Assembly (NCBI RefSeq): GCF_009827445.1
Contig: NZ_WTYI01000001.1
Span: forward strand, 1,998,381-2,062,380
DNA: 64,000 nt
Source of the DNA: Qipengyuania aquimaris
GTDB lineage: Bacteria; Pseudomonadota; Alphaproteobacteria; Sphingomonadales; Sphingomonadaceae
Direction of reading: 5' to 3'
Shown: positions 11,774 through 17,983 of the stretch, piece after piece
Layout: every line of letters starts with the position of its first letter
Position numbering within the stretch: the first letter of the stretch is position 1
Position numbers and translations under genes: made by a program
Notes under the pieces: model-generated
The model's database searches: none
What the model was told of the DNA's origin: nothing
Seen by the model: the letters and a program-made list of their open reading frames with translations, nothing else

Positions 11774-13330
11774 ATGGGAGACACAGCGGCAGCAGCCACA
11801 CTTTCCGAACCCTTCGGCAATTTTCCGCAGGTCCTGGCTCATTGGGCCAAGCGACAGCCTCAGGTCCCGGCGCTGCTCGACGATACCGGTGCGTTGACGT
11901 GGGCGGCCCTGGCTGACCGGATAGAGCGCATTGCAGCACGGCTTCTCGATGAAGGGTTGGAAAGAGGTCAGTCGGTCGCCATCCTCGGCGTTTCGTCGAT
12001 ACCTTACGCGCTTGTTTTTCTAGGCGCGATACGGGCGGGAGGAGTCGCGGCTCCCCTAACCACAAGCGCCAGTGCAGAGCAGCTGGAAGCCATGGCAAGG
12101 GACAGCGGCGCCCGGCACCTTTTCGTCACAAGGGCCAAGCTGGACGAGGTCGGCGAAGCGCGGTTTGCGGGGCTCGATCTCGTGGTTCTCGACGAGGCGC
12201 TCGACGATTGGATGGCACCGGCAGGTATCGAGGCACCTGCGTCAAACCCTGCTCCGGCAGATCCGTTCAACATCATCTATTCCTCCGGCACCACCGGCAC
12301 CCCGAAGGGCATCGTCCATTCACACCAGATGCGTTGGCGCCAGTTCGCGGCCACTGCATCCAGTTGGCTCGAGGCCGGCATTCCGGTCCGCACGCTCGCG
12401 TCTACCCCGCTCTATTCGAACACCACCATGGTTGCCTTCCTGCCTGCCCTGCTTGCTGGCGGCACGGTCAGGATCATGGGCAAGTTCGATACGATCGGCT
12501 GGCTGACCCATGCTGCAGAAGACAAGACGGCGGTCACGATGCTGGTGCCGGTCCAGTACCAACGGCTCATGGACGAGCCGCGCTTCGACGAGTTCGACCT
12601 TTCCTCGCTGCTACTGAAATATTGCACTTCGGCACCTTTCCCTGCGGATTTGAAGCGCGAGGTGCTGGCCCGGATGCCCGGTGCCCTCATCGAGATTTAC
12701 TCAATGACCGAAGGCGGCGTGGTCTGCCTTCTCGAAGCGCACAAATTTCCGGACAAGCTGCATACGGTGGGCCGTCCGGCGCCCGGCAGCGAACTCAAGG
12801 TGCTCGACGATGAGGATCGTGAAGTACCGGCCGGGACGCCCGGCAATCTCGTGGGCCGCAGCCAAACAATGATGAGCGGCTACAAGAACCGCCCCGACCA
12901 GACGCAGGAGGGCTACTGGACCGATCCTGCTACCGGGGAAACCTGGCAGCGCATGGGCGACATCGGACGCGTGGATGCTGCAGGCTTCGTCGAACTGGTG
13001 GGCCGCGCGAAAGACATGATTATTTCCGGCGGGTTCAACATCTATCCGGTCGATCTCGAAAACGAGCTGATGAAGGAAGCCGATGTGGTCGAAGCGGCCG
13101 TGATCGGGATGCCATCGCGCAGATGGGGCGAAAGCCCTGTCGGCTTCGTGAAGCTGGGGGACAATGCCCGCGAGACCGAGGCGATCCGCGAAGCGGTGAA
13201 CGGACGGCTGGGCAAGACGCAGAGGCTGGCCCAGTTGCATGCGATTAACGAAATGCCGCGAAGCCATATCGGCAAGCTGCTGAAGACAGAACTTCGCGAC
13301 CTTGCCGCGCAGCACGGCGCTCCCGAATAG
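11774..13330 (+). CDS. AMP-dependent acyl-CoA synthetase/ligase
   Basis: 518 residues from ATG 11774 (a GTG six codons upstream is possible; neither has a strong ribosome site). It is a complete class-I adenylate-forming enzyme: phosphate loop YSSGTTGTPKGIVHSH (about 175-190), A5 motif IYSMTEGG, A8 hinge GRAKDMIISGGFNIYPVD and catalytic Lys in SHIGKLLKTEL near the C-terminus. It should activate a carboxylic acid with ATP and load it onto CoA in the cytosol. The substrate is not readable; the closest general type is medium/long-chain or aryl acyl-CoA ligase. It is monocistronic, followed by a 443-bp gap. Confidence 0.9.
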   Translation: MGDTAAAATLSEPFGNFPQVLAHWAKRQPQVPALLDDTGALTWAALADRIERIAARLLDEGLERGQSVAILGVSSIPYALVFLGAIRAGGVAAPLTTSASAEQLEAMARDSGARHLFVTRAKLDEVGEARFAGLDLVVLDEALDDWMAPAGIEAPASNPAPADPFNIIYSSGTTGTPKGIVHSHQMRWRQFAATASSWLEAGIPVRTLASTPLYSNTTMVAFLPALLAGGTVRIMGKFDTIGWLTHAAEDKTAVTMLVPVQYQRLMDEPRFDEFDLSSLLLKYCTSAPFPADLKREVLARMPGALIEIYSMTEGGVVCLLEAHKFPDKLHTVGRPAPGSELKVLDDEDREVPAGTPGNLVGRSQTMMSGYKNRPDQTQEGYWTDPATGETWQRMGDIGRVDAAGFVELVGRAKDMIISGGFNIYPVDLENELMKEADVVEAAVIGMPSRRWGESPVGFVKLGDNARETEAIREAVNGRLGKTQRLAQLHAINEMPRSHIGKLLKTELRDLAAQHGAPE

Positions 13331-13773
13331 GGCAGTCGAGGTCGGCAGGCGCGTTCGAGACGCGGCGCCGACACTTGGGGGGAGGGGGAGAGGAGGTGTG
13401 GGCGGCCGCGTCTCTACTCGCTGCCATATCACCTCGCGCCGGAAGGGCTGAGCGTTAGGAGTACGCATGGGCCAAAAAGGCCAGCGGTTCCGCGCGAGGA
13501 AGGCGACGACAGGTTCTTTAGGGGAGAGCCTGACGCCATCTCTGTGCCGGTCGGAAGGACTTGGGAGACTGTTCCGTTCCCGGCTGTGAGGCCTGTAATA
13601 ATATTGCGAGGTCACGAACGAAAGTGAGAAAAGGTCAGGACTTGTTGCGTTTTGCGCAACATAATCTGATCATTTTCATCGGATCACATTGCAAAGCATG
13701 CAATTTTGCTGCAACTTATTGAAAAAATTGGGGGTTGCCGAGTCGTATCCGGGGTCGCATCCGGAGGTGAAGC
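13331..13773. other. Intergenic region upstream of the TIR operon
   Basis: No convincing gene. The last 150 bp turn markedly A+T-rich and contain a perfect hairpin GTTGCG-TTTTG-CGCAAC near 13645-13661. A weak EcfG-like match GGAAG-N17-CGTT lies at 13553-13578, almost 200 nt before the TIR start. A 40-codon reading frame at 13467 with an AGGAG site was seen but looks unlike a protein. Confidence 0.5.
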
Positions 13774-15813
13774 TTGGCCGAACGTCGTTACAAGGCATTC
13801 ATCAGTTATTCGCACCGCGACAAGCGGGTTGCGAACTGGCTGCATCACGCGTTGGAGACCTATCGGCTGCCGAACGGAGGCGGCGAATCGAAGGACCGCT
13901 ACGGGCTCCGTCCGATCTTCAAGGATCGCGACGAACTCCCCGCCGCAGACAACCTTGGCGAGGCGATCGAACAGGCGATCCGCGCCAGCGATGCCCTGAT
14001 CGTCCTGTGTTCACCCAGCGCTGCCCAGTCTCCCTGGATTGCACGCGAGATCGATCTCTACAAAAGGTTGAACGGCGATCGCGGGATCTTCCCTGTCATC
14101 GTCGACGGTGAGCCGCCCGAGAATTTCCCGCCGCCCCTGCTCGTCCACTACGAAAACGGCGAGCCTACCGAGGCACAGTCTGAGCCGATCGCCGCCGATC
14201 TCAGGCCCGAAGGCGACGGCAGGAAACTCGCCAAACTGAAGCTGATTGCCGGTCTCGCAAATCTCGATCTCGATAGCCTCGTGCAACGCGATGCCGCGCG
14301 GCGCCAGAAGAAGCTCGCCATAGTCGCGGCCGCTTCGCTCGTCGGCATGGTAGGGACGTCCGGGCTTGCCCTCTATGCCGTCGACCAGCGCAACGAGGCA
14401 CGAGACCAGCGCGCCGAGGCGGACGGGCTAATCGAATACATGCTGACCGATTTGCGCAAACAGCTTGAGCCGGTCGGGCGACTGGAGGTGCTCGACGGCG
14501 TCGGCAAGCGCGCGATGGATTATTACGCCAGGCAGAAGCTCGCCGATCTATCGGACGACGAGTTAGGCCGTAGGTCGCGCGCCACGATGCTCGTGGCAGA
14601 AGTTGCCATGGCACGAGGCGACAACCAGTCTGCCCTACCTGCTTTTCGACAGGCGGCGCGAACCACCCAGGCAATTCTCGATCGCAACCCAAATGACCCG
14701 CAAGCGATGTTCAACCACGGCCAAAGCCTTTTCTGGGTGGGTTACATCGCCTGGCAACATGGCGATTTGGACGCGGCTCGGCAGGGAATGGAAGGTTATT
14801 CGGAAATCTCTCGACGCCTGGCGGCCAAGGATCGATCCAATTTCGATTGGCAGATGGAGGAATCCTACTCCTACACCAACCTAGCCCAATTGAATCATGA
14901 TGAGGGCAACTACGCCAAAGCGTTGGCGTTCGCGAAAAAGGGAGCTGCGATCAACGATCAGGTTTCCGAGGCCGAAGGGCGCGATGATGCCCGGCAATTG
15001 GAGCTCGCCGACGCGCTATCGTTTGTCCACTCGCTTCAACGACGCGTGAAAGACGTCGAGAGTTCACGCGGGACGGTAGAGCGCGAACTGGCGATCTACG
15101 CCGACGTACTCGCCCGTGACCCGCAAAACCAGGTCGCGCGCCGATCGATGGGCAATGCACGATCTCGCCACGCAGCAGTTCTCTCGACACTGGGCCGCCA
15201 TGAAGAGTCCTTATCCGAATACGACAATGCGATATCCCTGCTGGAGGAGGTCCACGAAAACGAGCCGGACGATACCGAGACAGCCGACTTCCTCGTCATT
15301 GCGCTCAGGGGCAAGGCTTCAGAGTTGTGGCGCGGATCGCAAGGACCCAAAGCCACTGAGGCCTTTGATAAAGCCGATCGGCTCCTAGCTGCCACCCAGC
15401 GAAAAAATCCCGAAGAGCGCACGCGAAATCTGGTCTGGCGGGCCGAAATGGACCTTATTCGCTTCTTGACCGATCGATCCTTGGTCCCGGCGTCCGACAG
15501 GCTGGCCACGGCAAGGATGTGGCAAGCGCGTCTCCAAAGTGAGCGCGATACCGATCAAACCGCACTCGTACTATCTCACTTTGTTGCCGCGCAGGCACTT
15601 TCGGACCTGAATGGGGCGACTGAACGCACAAAGGAATTCCGCCAGCTTCTTGCAGGCATTCCGGCTGATCCCGCGAACATGCGTAGCGATAATGCGATCG
15701 CGCTTGCGGCGCTTGCGGCAAAGCTCTCCGGAAGGACGCAGATCGCGAAGAACTACGGCAGTTTTCTGGATGAACGGGGGCTGGATCCAGCTCTTGATGA
15801 TCGGCTCAACTGA
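13774..15813 (+). CDS. TIR domain protein with TM anchor and TPR-like region
   Basis: 679 residues from TTG 13774, which has GGAGGTG 5-6 nt upstream. TIR domain at about 5-125: KAFISYSHRDK (box 1), RDELPAADNL, SDALIVLCSPSAAQSPW and the WxxxE motif (Trp88-Glu92). The Glu corresponds to the catalytic residue of NAD-cleaving TIRs. A conserved linker (ADLRPEGDGRKLAKLKLIAG) leads to one TM helix at about 181-203. The rest is an alpha-helical, TPR-like region (for example FNHGQSLFWVGYIAWQHGD, NLAQLNHDEGNYAKALAFAK) on the other side of the membrane. It probably senses through the helical domain and signals through the TIR. A small gene follows 15 nt downstream. Base composition is lower in G+C than the flanks. 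It may act in defence or signalling; unproven. Confidence 0.85.
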   Translation: MAERRYKAFISYSHRDKRVANWLHHALETYRLPNGGGESKDRYGLRPIFKDRDELPAADNLGEAIEQAIRASDALIVLCSPSAAQSPWIAREIDLYKRLNGDRGIFPVIVDGEPPENFPPPLLVHYENGEPTEAQSEPIAADLRPEGDGRKLAKLKLIAGLANLDLDSLVQRDAARRQKKLAIVAAASLVGMVGTSGLALYAVDQRNEARDQRAEADGLIEYMLTDLRKQLEPVGRLEVLDGVGKRAMDYYARQKLADLSDDELGRRSRATMLVAEVAMARGDNQSALPAFRQAARTTQAILDRNPNDPQAMFNHGQSLFWVGYIAWQHGDLDAARQGMEGYSEISRRLAAKDRSNFDWQMEESYSYTNLAQLNHDEGNYAKALAFAKKGAAINDQVSEAEGRDDARQLELADALSFVHSLQRRVKDVESSRGTVERELAIYADVLARDPQNQVARRSMGNARSRHAAVLSTLGRHEESLSEYDNAISLLEEVHENEPDDTETADFLVIALRGKASELWRGSQGPKATEAFDKADRLLAATQRKNPEERTRNLVWRAEMDLIRFLTDRSLVPASDRLATARMWQARLQSERDTDQTALVLSHFVAAQALSDLNGATERTKEFRQLLAGIPADPANMRSDNAIALAALAAKLSGRTQIAKNYGSFLDERGLDPALDDRLN

Positions 15814-15828
15814 AGAAGGAGTATTGCA

Positions 15829-16320
15829 ATGACCATCCAAGTATCGGTGAACGTGTTCGTGTCGAATACGAAGAGTAGTTCAAAGGGTTACAAGGGCGAT
15901 TTCGTCTACCAGCAGACGTCTCCGACCGACAAGCTCTACGTCCAGGAAGATGGTTCGATGGACCTCAGCGACGTCAGCGACGAGGTGCAGATTGCCTTTG
16001 TTTGGAGCTCTCCATGGGTTTTGGTCGACGATCGCATCCTCAATGCCATGTGGGGCGGGCCGCTGAATGCCAATATCTGGATATCGGAAGGCGAAAATTC
16101 GACACCCACTTCGGGCGATGCTCCTCCCGTGGATCCTGGTTCGGGAGACTTCTATGCCCCCACGCCACCGGCTAACCAGCCGCAAAACCTCACGGTTGTC
16201 GACAAGAACGACGATGGAAAGAAGTACAAGTACACCCTGCACTGCTGGGTAAATGACGGAACTTCCGACGGGACCGCAATTTTCGACGATCCGAAGGTCG
16301 TGAATCGCTCGCTGGACTAA
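15829..16320 (+). CDS. Unknown small protein paired with TIR gene
   Basis: 163 residues from ATG 15829 with an AAGGAG ribosome site; it starts 15 nt after the TIR stop, so the two form an operon. There is no signal peptide or TM helix. The sequence is beta-prone and hydrophilic with many Asp, Ser, Thr and Trp residues, a Pro-rich middle (APTPPANQPQN) and a C-terminus KYKYTLHCWVNDGTSDG then FDDPKVVNRS. The Ile/Val-rich strands and the terminal DPKVVN resemble small Ig-like or inclusion-body-type (AidA/PixA) beta sandwiches only loosely. I do not assign a family. It could be a ligand, effector or regulator of the TIR protein. Confidence 0.7.
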   Translation: MTIQVSVNVFVSNTKSSSKGYKGDFVYQQTSPTDKLYVQEDGSMDLSDVSDEVQIAFVWSSPWVLVDDRILNAMWGGPLNANIWISEGENSTPTSGDAPPVDPGSGDFYAPTPPANQPQNLTVVDKNDDGKKYKYTLHCWVNDGTSDGTAIFDDPKVVNRSLD

Positions 16321-16371
16321 GGGCAGGGACTCACCGGATTCACCCGAAAGGGGCGAATCCGGCCACTGCCC
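16321..16371 (+). terminator. Long hairpin after the TIR operon
   Basis: Nested stems GGGCAG/CTGCCC (16321-16326/16366-16371) and CCGGATTC/GAATCCGG (16334-16341/16355-16362) begin directly after the stop of the small gene. There is no T-run, so it is either a Rho-assisted terminator or an mRNA 3'-end stabiliser. It insulates guaA. Confidence 0.55.
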
Positions 16372-16408
16372 TATGGACACGGGTCGCGCCCCTGCTTAAC
16401 CGCCCCAC

Positions 16409-17983
16409 ATGGACGCATCCCACCTTCCCGATTCCATCCTTATCGTCGATTTCGGCAGCCAGGTTACCCAGCTGATTGCACGCCGCGTGCGCGAGGCAGG
16501 GGTCTATTCCGAAATCGCGCCTTTCACGCAGGCCGAAGAGGCGTTCCATCGCCTCAAACCCAAGGGCATCATCCTGTCGGGCTCTCCCGCAGGCGTGCCG
16601 GAAGAAGGAAGTCCGCGGGCACCCGAAATGCTGTTCGAGGCGGGCATCCCGATCCTCGGCATCTGCTACGGCCAACAGGTGATGAGCCACCAGCTCGGCG
16701 GCGAAGTGCGCCCGGGCCATGAAACCGGCGAAGGCGGCGAATTCGGCCGCGCCTTCCTGACCGTCACCAAGGAGTGCGCCTTGTTCGACGGTCTCTGGAA
16801 AGAGGGCGAGCGGCACCAGGTCTGGATGAGCCACGGCGACAAGGTGACCAAATTCGCCCCCGGCTTTGAAATCGTCGCCATTTCCGACGGCGCGCCTTTT
16901 GCGGTCATCGCGGACGAAAAACGCAAGTACTACGGCACCCAGTTCCACCCCGAGGTTGTCCACACACCCGATGGCGGCAAGCTGATCGCCAACTTCGTAC
17001 GCCACGTCTGCGGGCTTGCCGGCGACTGGACCATGGCCGCCTATCGCGAAACCAAGGTCCGCGAAATCCGCGAGCAGGTGGGCGACGGCAAGGTAATCTG
17101 CGGCCTGTCGGGCGGCGTCGACAGTTCGGTCGCGGCGATTCTTATCCACGAGGCGATCGGCGACCAGCTGACCTGCGTCTTCGTGGACCATGGCCTGCTG
17201 CGCCTCAACGAGCGCGAACAGGTCGAGACCATGTTCCGCGATCATTACAATATCCCGCTGGTCGTCGTGGATGCCGAAGACATGTTCATGGACGGCCTTG
17301 CCGGAGTCACCGACCCGGAAGCCAAGCGTAAGTTCATCGGCAAGACCTTCATCGACGTCTTCGAAGCCGAAGCGAAGAATGTGGGCGGCGCGGATTTCCT
17401 CGCCCAGGGCACGCTCTATCCCGACGTCATCGAAAGCGTCAGCTTCACCGGCGGACCTTCGGTCACGATCAAGAGCCACCACAATGTCGGCGGCCTACCC
17501 GAACGCATGAACATGAAACTGGTCGAGCCGCTGCGCGAACTCTTCAAGGACGAGGTGCGCGAACTTGGCCGAGAACTTGGCCTGCCCGACATGTTTGTCG
17601 GCCGCCATCCCTTCCCCGGACCGGGTCTTGCGATCCGCATCCCGGGCGAGGTCACGAAGGAACGCTGCGACATCCTGCGCAAGGCCGATGCGATCTATCT
17701 CGACGAGATCCGCAAGGCGGGACTTTACGATGCAATCTGGCAGGCATTCGCTGTGCTGCTACCGGTCAAGACCGTGGGCGTGATGGGCGATTATCGCACT
17801 TACGACAGCGTCTGCGGCCTGCGTGCAGTGACCAGCACCGACGGGATGACCGCCGATGTCTATCCTTTCGACGCGGCCTTCCTGACCGGATGCGCCACGC
17901 GGATCGTGAACGAGGTGCAAGGCATCAATCGCGTGGTGTACGACTATACGAGCAAGCCGCCCGGCACGATCGAGTGGGAATAA
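16409..17983 (+). CDS. guaA: GMP synthase (glutamine-hydrolysing)
   Basis: 524 residues, full length. Glutamine amidotransferase domain at about 9-200: [16 protein letters not shown], nucleophile Cys86 in GICYGQQ and the His/Glu pair in [11 protein letters not shown]-pyrophosphatase domain with P-loop [12 protein letters not shown]. Dimerisation domain ending KPPGTIEWE, the canonical C-terminus. It aminates XMP to GMP in the cytosol. No ribosome site stands out before ATG 16409. It lies alone between the TIR operon and a methyltransferase. Confidence 0.97.

Follow-up and report, generated by a model that had tools for sequence, protein, structure and literature searches.

A predicted TIR-TPR membrane receptor and its small partner form a conserved, jointly diverging gene pair in Qipengyuania

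Results

Two genes between an acyl-CoA ligase gene and guaA

We analysed a 64-kb stretch of the Qipengyuania aquimaris genome (hereafter the window; the genome is a single contig of 2.66 Mb), in which an acyl-CoA ligase gene, a gene for a TIR-transmembrane (TM)-TPR protein, a gene for a small protein and guaA follow one another. The two middle genes, called here the receptor and the partner, are separated by 15 bp as open reading frames (ORFs), and close orthologues with named records come from Qipengyuania and Erythrobacter (Table 1). An earlier note on this DNA, from which we take the ligase label, had singled out the pair as a candidate for an undescribed defence or signalling system. We find a real, conserved and fast-diverging recognition pair, and a role in defence is likely.

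The TTG start of the receptor is preceded by a Shine-Dalgarno GGAGG at 13763-13767, and the ORFs of two homologues (L050 and L055; labels of loci and genomes are our own) begin at the same position. In L043-L049, L053 and L054, the stretch matching window 13735-13773 can be read as an open frame ahead of the receptor start, giving PSRIRGRIRR or close to it. A longer receptor N-terminus of this kind was considered and rejected, because in the window a TGA downstream of the Shine-Dalgarno interrupts this frame and L050 and L055 use the shorter start; the stretch is conserved as DNA. The hairpin said to close the unit is real, with a folding energy of -39.5 kcal/mol for 80 nt, and has no T run. 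The lower G+C that had been ascribed to the whole unit holds for the partner gene (54.5%, within the lowest 1-2% of 500-bp windows) and not for the receptor gene, whose 60.0% against 62.2% in both neighbours is ordinary (500-bp windows, 62.5 +/- 2.9). No known RNA was found in 13200-16450, the best Rfam match (E 0.37) being under its gathering score.

Table 1 Positions of the receptor-partner unit and its elements in the window
Feature	Position	Strand	Basis
Older element upstream of guaA, GAACGAAAGTGAGAAAA ... GTTGCGTTTTGCGCAA	13616..13659	+	search of empty sites
Conserved leader element of the unit, ends in Shine-Dalgarno	13735..13767	+	alignment
TIR-TM-TPR receptor gene, 679 aa, TTG start	13774..15813	+	ORF, Pfam, AlphaFold2 (AF2)
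TIR domain, residues 1-175	13774..14298	+	Pfam, motif alignment
W88 to E92 of WxxxE	14035-14049	+	residue numbers converted to bases by hand
Single predicted TM helix, ~residues 180-202, K/R-rich N side	14311..14379	+	hydrophobicity, charge bias
Conserved stalk and proximal TPRs, residues 203-400	14380..14973	+	identity among orthologues; homology to wHTH-nSTAND1 receptors in their TM-TPR part
Hypervariable distal TPRs, residues 401-679	14974..15810	+	25-34% identity to window in orthologues; covariation with partner
Partner gene, 163 aa, predicted beta sandwich, no hydrophobic N-terminal segment	15829..16320	+	ORF, AF2, Foldseek
Codons of invariant D154-P155, near partner C-terminus	16288..16293	+	alignment
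Hairpin without T run, partner gene to guaA	16321..16371	+	RNA folding

The distal TPRs and the partner diverge together

Sixteen orthologues, with one genome per species compared, showed a steep gradient of identity to the window. While guaA is 86-99% identical, the values are 66-90% for the TIR domain, 62-95% for the TM helix and stalk and 52-63% for the proximal TPRs, and they fall to the range given in Table 1 for the distal TPRs and to 16-42% for the partner. Loci L051 and L053, for example, are 93% identical over the TIR domain and stalk, 49% over the distal TPRs and 24% over the partner. Partner identity tracks distal TPR identity when the TIR domain and stalk are controlled for (17 loci, 136 pairs; partial r 0.72; 0 of 5000 permutations), also when near-duplicates are dropped (0.51; 21 of 5000; 12 loci, 66 pairs). 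The distal TPRs and the partner thus diverge together between species, while the TIR domain and stalk stay conserved.

The receptor joins a TIR domain to a membrane-held helical sensor

Pfam profiles identify a TIR domain in the receptor (TIR_2, PF13676, 61.3 bits with a cut-off of 28; ThsB_TIR, 40.6 bits with a cut-off of 21.2) and a TPR region (TPR_12, 39 bits with a cut-off of 30.1). The WxxxE glutamate noticed previously is present, W88 and E92 being invariant in all 29 aligned receptors, and a W...E lies within residues 61-130 in 80/80 loci of the wider set described below. The window receptor contains one hydrophobic segment with a Kyte-Doolittle (KD) value >=1.25, starting at residue 180, in line with the single membrane helix that had been proposed. 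The large helical sensor expected behind this helix is borne out by the TPR_12 match, by the AF2 model, which combines an alpha/beta domain at the N-terminus with a long helical repeat (mean predicted local distance difference test (pLDDT) 86.6; below 50 at residues 185-206 and 36-42), and by Foldseek, whose best matches to this model are TPR and other helical-repeat proteins. An excess of Lys and Arg on the N side of the hydrophobic segment was found in 71 of 80 receptors, with a tie in seven, which by the positive-inside rule places the TIR domain inside and the TPR region outside. As a side observation, an 824-aa 'Tetratricopeptide repeat protein' in the PDB (9m0n / 9umd) weakly matches the window TIR domain (E 0.25) and could be a solved TIR-TPR relative.

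The partner is a predicted beta sandwich with an invariant Asp-Pro

The partner, which had been read as beta-rich, is predicted by AF2 to be a beta sandwich (pLDDT 91.8; predicted template modelling score 0.86). Foldseek with this model gave SO1698 of Shewanella as the best match (E 8e-5; TM-score 0.60 by target), a structure titled aspartic peptidase, followed by PixA (4lzk; E 4e-4). D125, Y135, D154 and P155 are the sole invariant residues in the partner alignment, the Asp-Pro being present in 17/17 sequences. Nine residues, Pro included, follow Asp154 in the window partner, and nine is also the median number after this Asp among the 68 partner sequences with the C-terminal pattern given below. 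SO1698 is said, in work of Osipiuk from 2012, to cut itself at Asp116-Pro117 and to leave a nine-residue tail. We take Lys98 and Asp37 of SO1698 to belong to the self-cleaving site, and DUF1888 to be another name of its family, DP-EP (PF08985). A PF08985 match, the L173 partner, retrieves SO1698 at E 1e-5, grouping SO1698 with DP-EP-type proteins.

Profile searches do not place the window partner in a named family. Its only Pfam match is at chance level (CILP, E 0.19), with none at E <= 1 to DP-EP, to pNTSase1 (PF20301) or to PixA (PF12306, which we found in 2/249 genomes), and PADLOC and NCBIfam gave no match. A distant partner, L137, reaches 17.6 bits on DP-EP, below the cut-off of 25, and retrieved nothing from the PDB. 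In hhalign comparisons, the window partner family matches the nine partners of the wHTH-type receptors described below at 92.8% over the C-terminal 54 columns and pNTSase1-type partners at 75% over 110 columns; between the DP-EP-type and pNTSase1-type profiles there is no match (0.3%).

In an alternative reading, the partner produces a nucleotide signal enzymatically; this is suggested by pNTSase1, the Pfam name of some TIR-linked partners, which stands for predicted novel nucleotide synthetase. In its favour are the 75% alignment above and the locus of G187, where a TIR receptor has a PF20301 member (147 bits) in the place of the partner; two further partners reach 25.3 and 20.5 bits on this family (cut-off 25). 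However, the window partner lacks such a match, its model is a beta sandwich closest to SO1698, only four residues are invariant in the family, and the DP-EP-type and pNTSase1-type profiles stand apart; we regard a nucleotide-making partner as very improbable.

The pair recurs across Proteobacteria

A wider set was formed from the best 80 of at least 571 receptor relatives in named genomes, including the genus members already counted. It spans Alpha-, Beta- and Gammaproteobacteria and one Verrucomicrobia record. A downstream ORF ending in DPx[ILVFM]x[NDG], a pattern picked after inspecting the C-termini of partner ORFs, is found in 50/80 loci compared with 35/5750 control ORFs of the same loci; a C-terminal profile made from the 50 pattern-positive loci, and for that reason not independent, finds the partner in 59/80. 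Together with its presence beside 18/18 receptor copies in the genus, this runs against the refuting outcome named in the earlier note, in which the small gene would be missing next to most receptor homologues, and the recurrence of the pair across genomes is more than chance. In some loci, the earliest start that a partner ORF could use overlaps with the stop codon of the receptor gene. Among plasmids, the receptor has matches in 13 records, none of which covers 80% of its length, and searches for the partner in phages and for the receptor in viral contigs gave no match.

The joint divergence could also arise if the partner were an activating ligand rather than a brake, that is, a self-marker that, once released or exported, is read by the TPRs of its own or a neighbouring cell in kin or allorecognition, with co-variation reflecting self-matching instead of an arms race with phages. 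In addition to the co-change of distal TPRs and partner, second partner ORFs in six of the 80 loci and tandem receptor-partner pairs in two would suit such a role, as would an N-terminal hydrophobic segment in 9/81 partner sequences (a set that counts one gene twice, L052 = L070), six of which have a lipoprotein-like Cys by eye (L101, L104, L115, L116, L131 and L102). The window partner, however, has no such segment, the third genes of relatives (see below) resemble death or messenger effectors, and the comparison covers one genome per species only, so that we think a self-marker unlikely.

The same sensor occurs under a wHTH-nSTAND1 output

DP-EP genes were found in 5/299 genomes, and in 5/5 the preceding gene encodes a receptor of 1066-1112 aa; the four of these receptors scanned with Pfam contain winged helix-turn-helix (wHTH), nSTAND1 and TPR domains. 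nSTAND1 appears as a named domain class in a passage of PMC8195603. The window TM-TPR segment alone matched 18 of 337 genomes, including wHTH-nSTAND1 receptors at L202 (31% identity) and L203 (30% identity), behind each of which lies a small ORF ending in DPEITN or DPEVVN. Conversely, the L202 receptor as a query against 299 genomes gave seven near-full-length matches, in the five DP-EP genomes, already known from the partner-first search, and in G353 and G214. It also retrieved the window receptor in the TM-TPR part (E 3e-25). A small Asp-Pro ORF lies directly behind all seven, that of G214 being a weak match (E 0.074, DPQVVC), and with L202 and L203 the partner accompanies 9/9 wHTH-nSTAND1 receptors, one partner being weak. 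The Pfam scan covered six of the nine, and the other three (L171, L250 and L251) align with the wHTH-nSTAND1 query beginning at residue 5 and reaching residue 1056 or further. The C-terminus of the L251 partner, DPQVVC, falls outside the strict pattern.

Since receptors of both the TIR and the wHTH-nSTAND1 type have a partner, the partner appears to go with the sensor and not with the TIR domain. As judged from the sequences, one TM-TPR and partner chassis carries either output, within the limit that profiles join the two partner groups only in part.

Third genes in relatives resemble effectors of NAD-derived signals

In relatives, a third gene often follows. As the third gene we used the first long ORF that follows the receptor gene, and of 71 such ORFs we aligned the 64 from loci outside the Qipengyuania set, leaving out the seven genus loci; as these calls are longest ORFs, wrong frames may be included. 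Homology clustering placed 33/64 in two clusters, A and B, of 19 and 14 members. Counted over all 64 without regard to cluster, TPR-S (PF20308) matches 17, a cyclase domain seven and SLATT_1 eight. In cluster B, 11/14 third genes have the motif [VI]G[VI]T[GS]HR, read here as SLOG, and 14/14 have three or four hydrophobic segments; the two clusters are read as SLOG-membrane and TPR-S proteins. In the passages of PMC9503650 on these families, ThsB makes signals of the cyclic ADP-ribose type that SLOG reads, and SLATT is a predicted ADP-ribose-regulated membrane effector. The third genes are compatible with ADP-ribose-type, NAD-derived messengers, and these neighbours, together with the intact Glu, support the signalling activity that the earlier note had suggested for the TIR domain.

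The unit occupies a fixed site that is empty in most other genus genomes examined

A full-length receptor (>=47% identity) was found in 14/37 same-genus genomes, its own included, among 61 relatives, and overall the receptor is present in 17/60 genus genomes as 18 copies. The unit lies in the same ligase-guaA interval in 13/13 orthologues checked; in L050 the partner gene and guaA lie about 1.6 kb apart, and in L051 guaA runs into the contig end. We examined 20 of the 23 same-genus genomes that have no full-length receptor (G004, G013 and G028 were left out), and in 18/20 guaA comes next after the ligase gene, at a distance of 336-2021 bp, while the remaining two have no ligase gene in the stretch examined.

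The leader element is present in 12/14 aligned loci, not in L050 and L055, and was not found in the 18 empty sites (<=3 mismatches). At the same tolerance, the GAACGAAAGTGAGAAAA part of the older element is present in 17/18 empty sites and the GTTGCGTTTTGCGCAA part, on the same strand upstream of guaA, in 13/18, indicating that the unit sits between guaA and guaA's older upstream element. We considered whether the GTTGCGTTTTGCGCAA box, which in its exact form occurs once in the genome, is an operator of the unit itself, and rejected this because its presence in the empty sites means that it predates the unit.

This placement bears on a further alternative, in which the receptor monitors the condition of some cell component as part of housekeeping or envelope-stress signalling and has no role in conflict. 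The constant interval, the position behind an element that precedes guaA in empty sites too, the transcriptional output implied by the wHTH-nSTAND1 versions and the pairwise purifying selection (see Discussion) are what such a sensor might show. Yet its presence is patchy, with the site empty in most genomes checked, and the distal TPRs and partner have diverged strongly in species whose guaA keeps 86-99% identity, which together fit a housekeeping sensor poorly and make this alternative improbable.

Other features were seen at or near such loci. A hairpin element at window 13339-13436 (GAGACGCGG ... CCGCGTCTCTACTCGCTGCC, with a G-rich loop) in the ligase-guaA interval is strongly conserved, in 25/25 intervals with and without the unit, and is possibly an undescribed small RNA, with no Rfam family at that place. 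Qipengyuania vesicularis (L069 / L247) has two receptor-partner pairs in tandem, and a genome of the same order (G057:C1 11374-53122) has several TIR-TPR receptor pieces within ~42 kb.

Discussion

Relation to known systems

Among described systems, Thoeris is close in that a TIR protein makes an NAD+-derived signal that a SLOG protein reads, as outlined in part of PMC9503650. The window TIR domain passes Pfam ThsB_TIR, and in relatives the cluster B third genes have a motif read as SLOG, together with membrane segments. In contrast to Thoeris, the window receptor contains a TM helix and TPRs and has a beta-sandwich partner; the partner and then guaA follow it, and no adjacent SLOG effector was found with tblastn of ten third genes as queries (ThsA was not a query). 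The PADLOC ThsB model gives the window TIR domain E 0.063, which does not reach its threshold, and PADLOC on the window returned only weak TIR matches, the best at E 5.7e-8 to a SAVED-TIR model, so that no named defence system could be assigned.

DP-EP proteins (PF08985; SO1698) resemble the window partner in predicted fold, moderately, in the C-terminal Asp-Pro and its distance from the end, and in standing directly behind a TM-TPR receptor. Unlike them, the window partner misses the Pfam model, the Lys98 and Asp37 of SO1698 do not appear to be conserved in its family and its receptor has a TIR output; we therefore do not file it as DP-EP. The wHTH-nSTAND1-TPR receptors share the homologous TM-stalk-TPR part and the partner kind, and differ in having a DNA-binding domain and an NTPase as output where the window receptor has TIR. 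The pNTSase1 and TPR-S systems are close in that, at loci related to that of the window, a pNTSase1 or weakly pNTSase1-like partner stands behind a TIR-TM-TPR gene and TPR-S or cyclase third genes occur, whereas the window has neither a pNTSase1 nor a TPR-S match.

We take PF20301 and PF20308 to be conflict-system families, reportedly treated by Burroughs and Aravind in 2020. We did not find the receptor-partner pair among the papers listed in literature searches, but the paper on these families may hold a related description, and part of the set may already be described. The view of the earlier note that the system is undescribed thus holds in part only, since these two families in related loci are already named. 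New as far as we examined are the predicted fold of the partner, the link to DP-EP, the combination of TIR and wHTH-nSTAND1 outputs on one chassis and the joint divergence. As for its proposal of a defence or signalling system, the intact Glu and the third genes speak for signalling, while the fixed site beside guaA, the sparse PADLOC matches and the lack of a phage link do not speak for defence.

A two-gene membrane recognition unit

We propose, with about an even chance of being right, a two-gene membrane recognition unit in which the partner sets the state of the variable TPR sensor and NAD+ chemistry of the TIR domain is the output. The TIR domain would lie in the cytoplasm, one helix would cross the inner membrane and the TPR superhelix would act as the sensor. 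The partner would most likely be a dedicated binder of the variable distal TPRs that holds the receptor off or reports a trigger, and by analogy with SO1698 the Asp-Pro site near its C-terminus may be cut by the partner itself. Receptors would cluster, and the TIR domain would cleave NAD+, once the partner has been displaced, altered or cut. In many relatives, the product may act on the neighbouring SLOG-like membrane or TPR-S protein; in this genus, where no such neighbour was found, loss of NAD+ itself or an unlinked effector could be the output. The purpose of the unit is likely a response to an invader or a rival. The gene pairing, the shared sensor under different outputs, the joint divergence and the invariant Glu and Asp-Pro are observed in the genomes, whereas the partner fold is predicted, and from these we infer partner-TPR binding, the direction of control, cleavage, NADase activity and defence.

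Several observations weigh against this proposal. In the divergence analysis, the TIR domain and stalk also correlate with the partner when the distal TPRs are removed (0.32; 4 of 5000; full set), a value that falls to 0.17 (635 of 5000) in the reduced set of 12 loci. The ratio of non-synonymous to synonymous substitutions (dN/dS) is below 1 pairwise in every region of the seven close pairs tested, and positive selection, which we had considered, is therefore not supported. Exactly one segment with KD >=1.5 is present in just 48/80 receptors, while 31/80 have two or three and one has none. The serious difficulty concerns location, in that 72/81 partner sequences have no N-terminal hydrophobic segment even though the charge bias places the TPRs outside; either the TPR region is not where the charge rule puts it, for which the receptors with more than one hydrophobic segment leave room, or partners arrive by another route.

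The likeness of the partner to SO1698 is moderate (TM-score 0.47 by query; root-mean-square deviation 5.3; predicted model), and SO1698 is not among the 21 hits at E <= 10 of a PDB search with the partner profile, the best being a cadherin at 0.019. As read from alignments, Lys98 and Asp37 do not appear to be conserved (the window partner has a K before Y-x-Y where relatives vary, and Asp37 aligns without confidence), so that self-cleavage may not occur. No partner was found by profile in 21/80 loci, two of which are cut by contig ends, and a wHTH receptor in G294 that matches only residues 4-592 has none. The C-terminal profile of TIR-type partners reaches E <= 1 in only 4/9 wHTH-type loci (L250, 0.0074; L173, 0.061; L251, 0.074; L175, 0.9), and the link between the two partner groups thus rests on position, motif, fold and profile comparison. 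With regard to effectors and defence, tblastn with eight cluster B and two cluster A third genes found none in the window, nor in 13 other genus loci, and TPR-S had no match in the window's genome at E <= 1e-3. PADLOC matches among the 64 third genes are few, with at most two members per model, and they give no evidence of a defence island or of the enrichment near defence genes that the earlier note had suggested looking for.

A bolder reading, which we offer tentatively and think rather unlikely as a whole, is a modular, hypervariable platform of Proteobacteria. Here, the TM-TPR sensor would be joined to a self-cutting Asp-Pro beta-sandwich partner that the variable TPR half would recognise as its matched self ligand, its cutting or displacement would be the trigger, and the outputs would be interchangeable, with TIR acting on SLOG-membrane or TPR-S/cyclase effectors, or wHTH-nSTAND1 acting through transcription.

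To our knowledge, the Asp-Pro self-cleavage of SO1698 has been described without a known role, and the proposed recognition unit would provide a setting for DP-EP proteins such as SO1698. It would also cast doubt on partners of the pNTSase1 kind being nucleotide synthetases. In this unit, a bacterial receptor would diversify jointly with its partner in the sensing half, with an immune-type output that is held fixed and that is exchanged between lineages.

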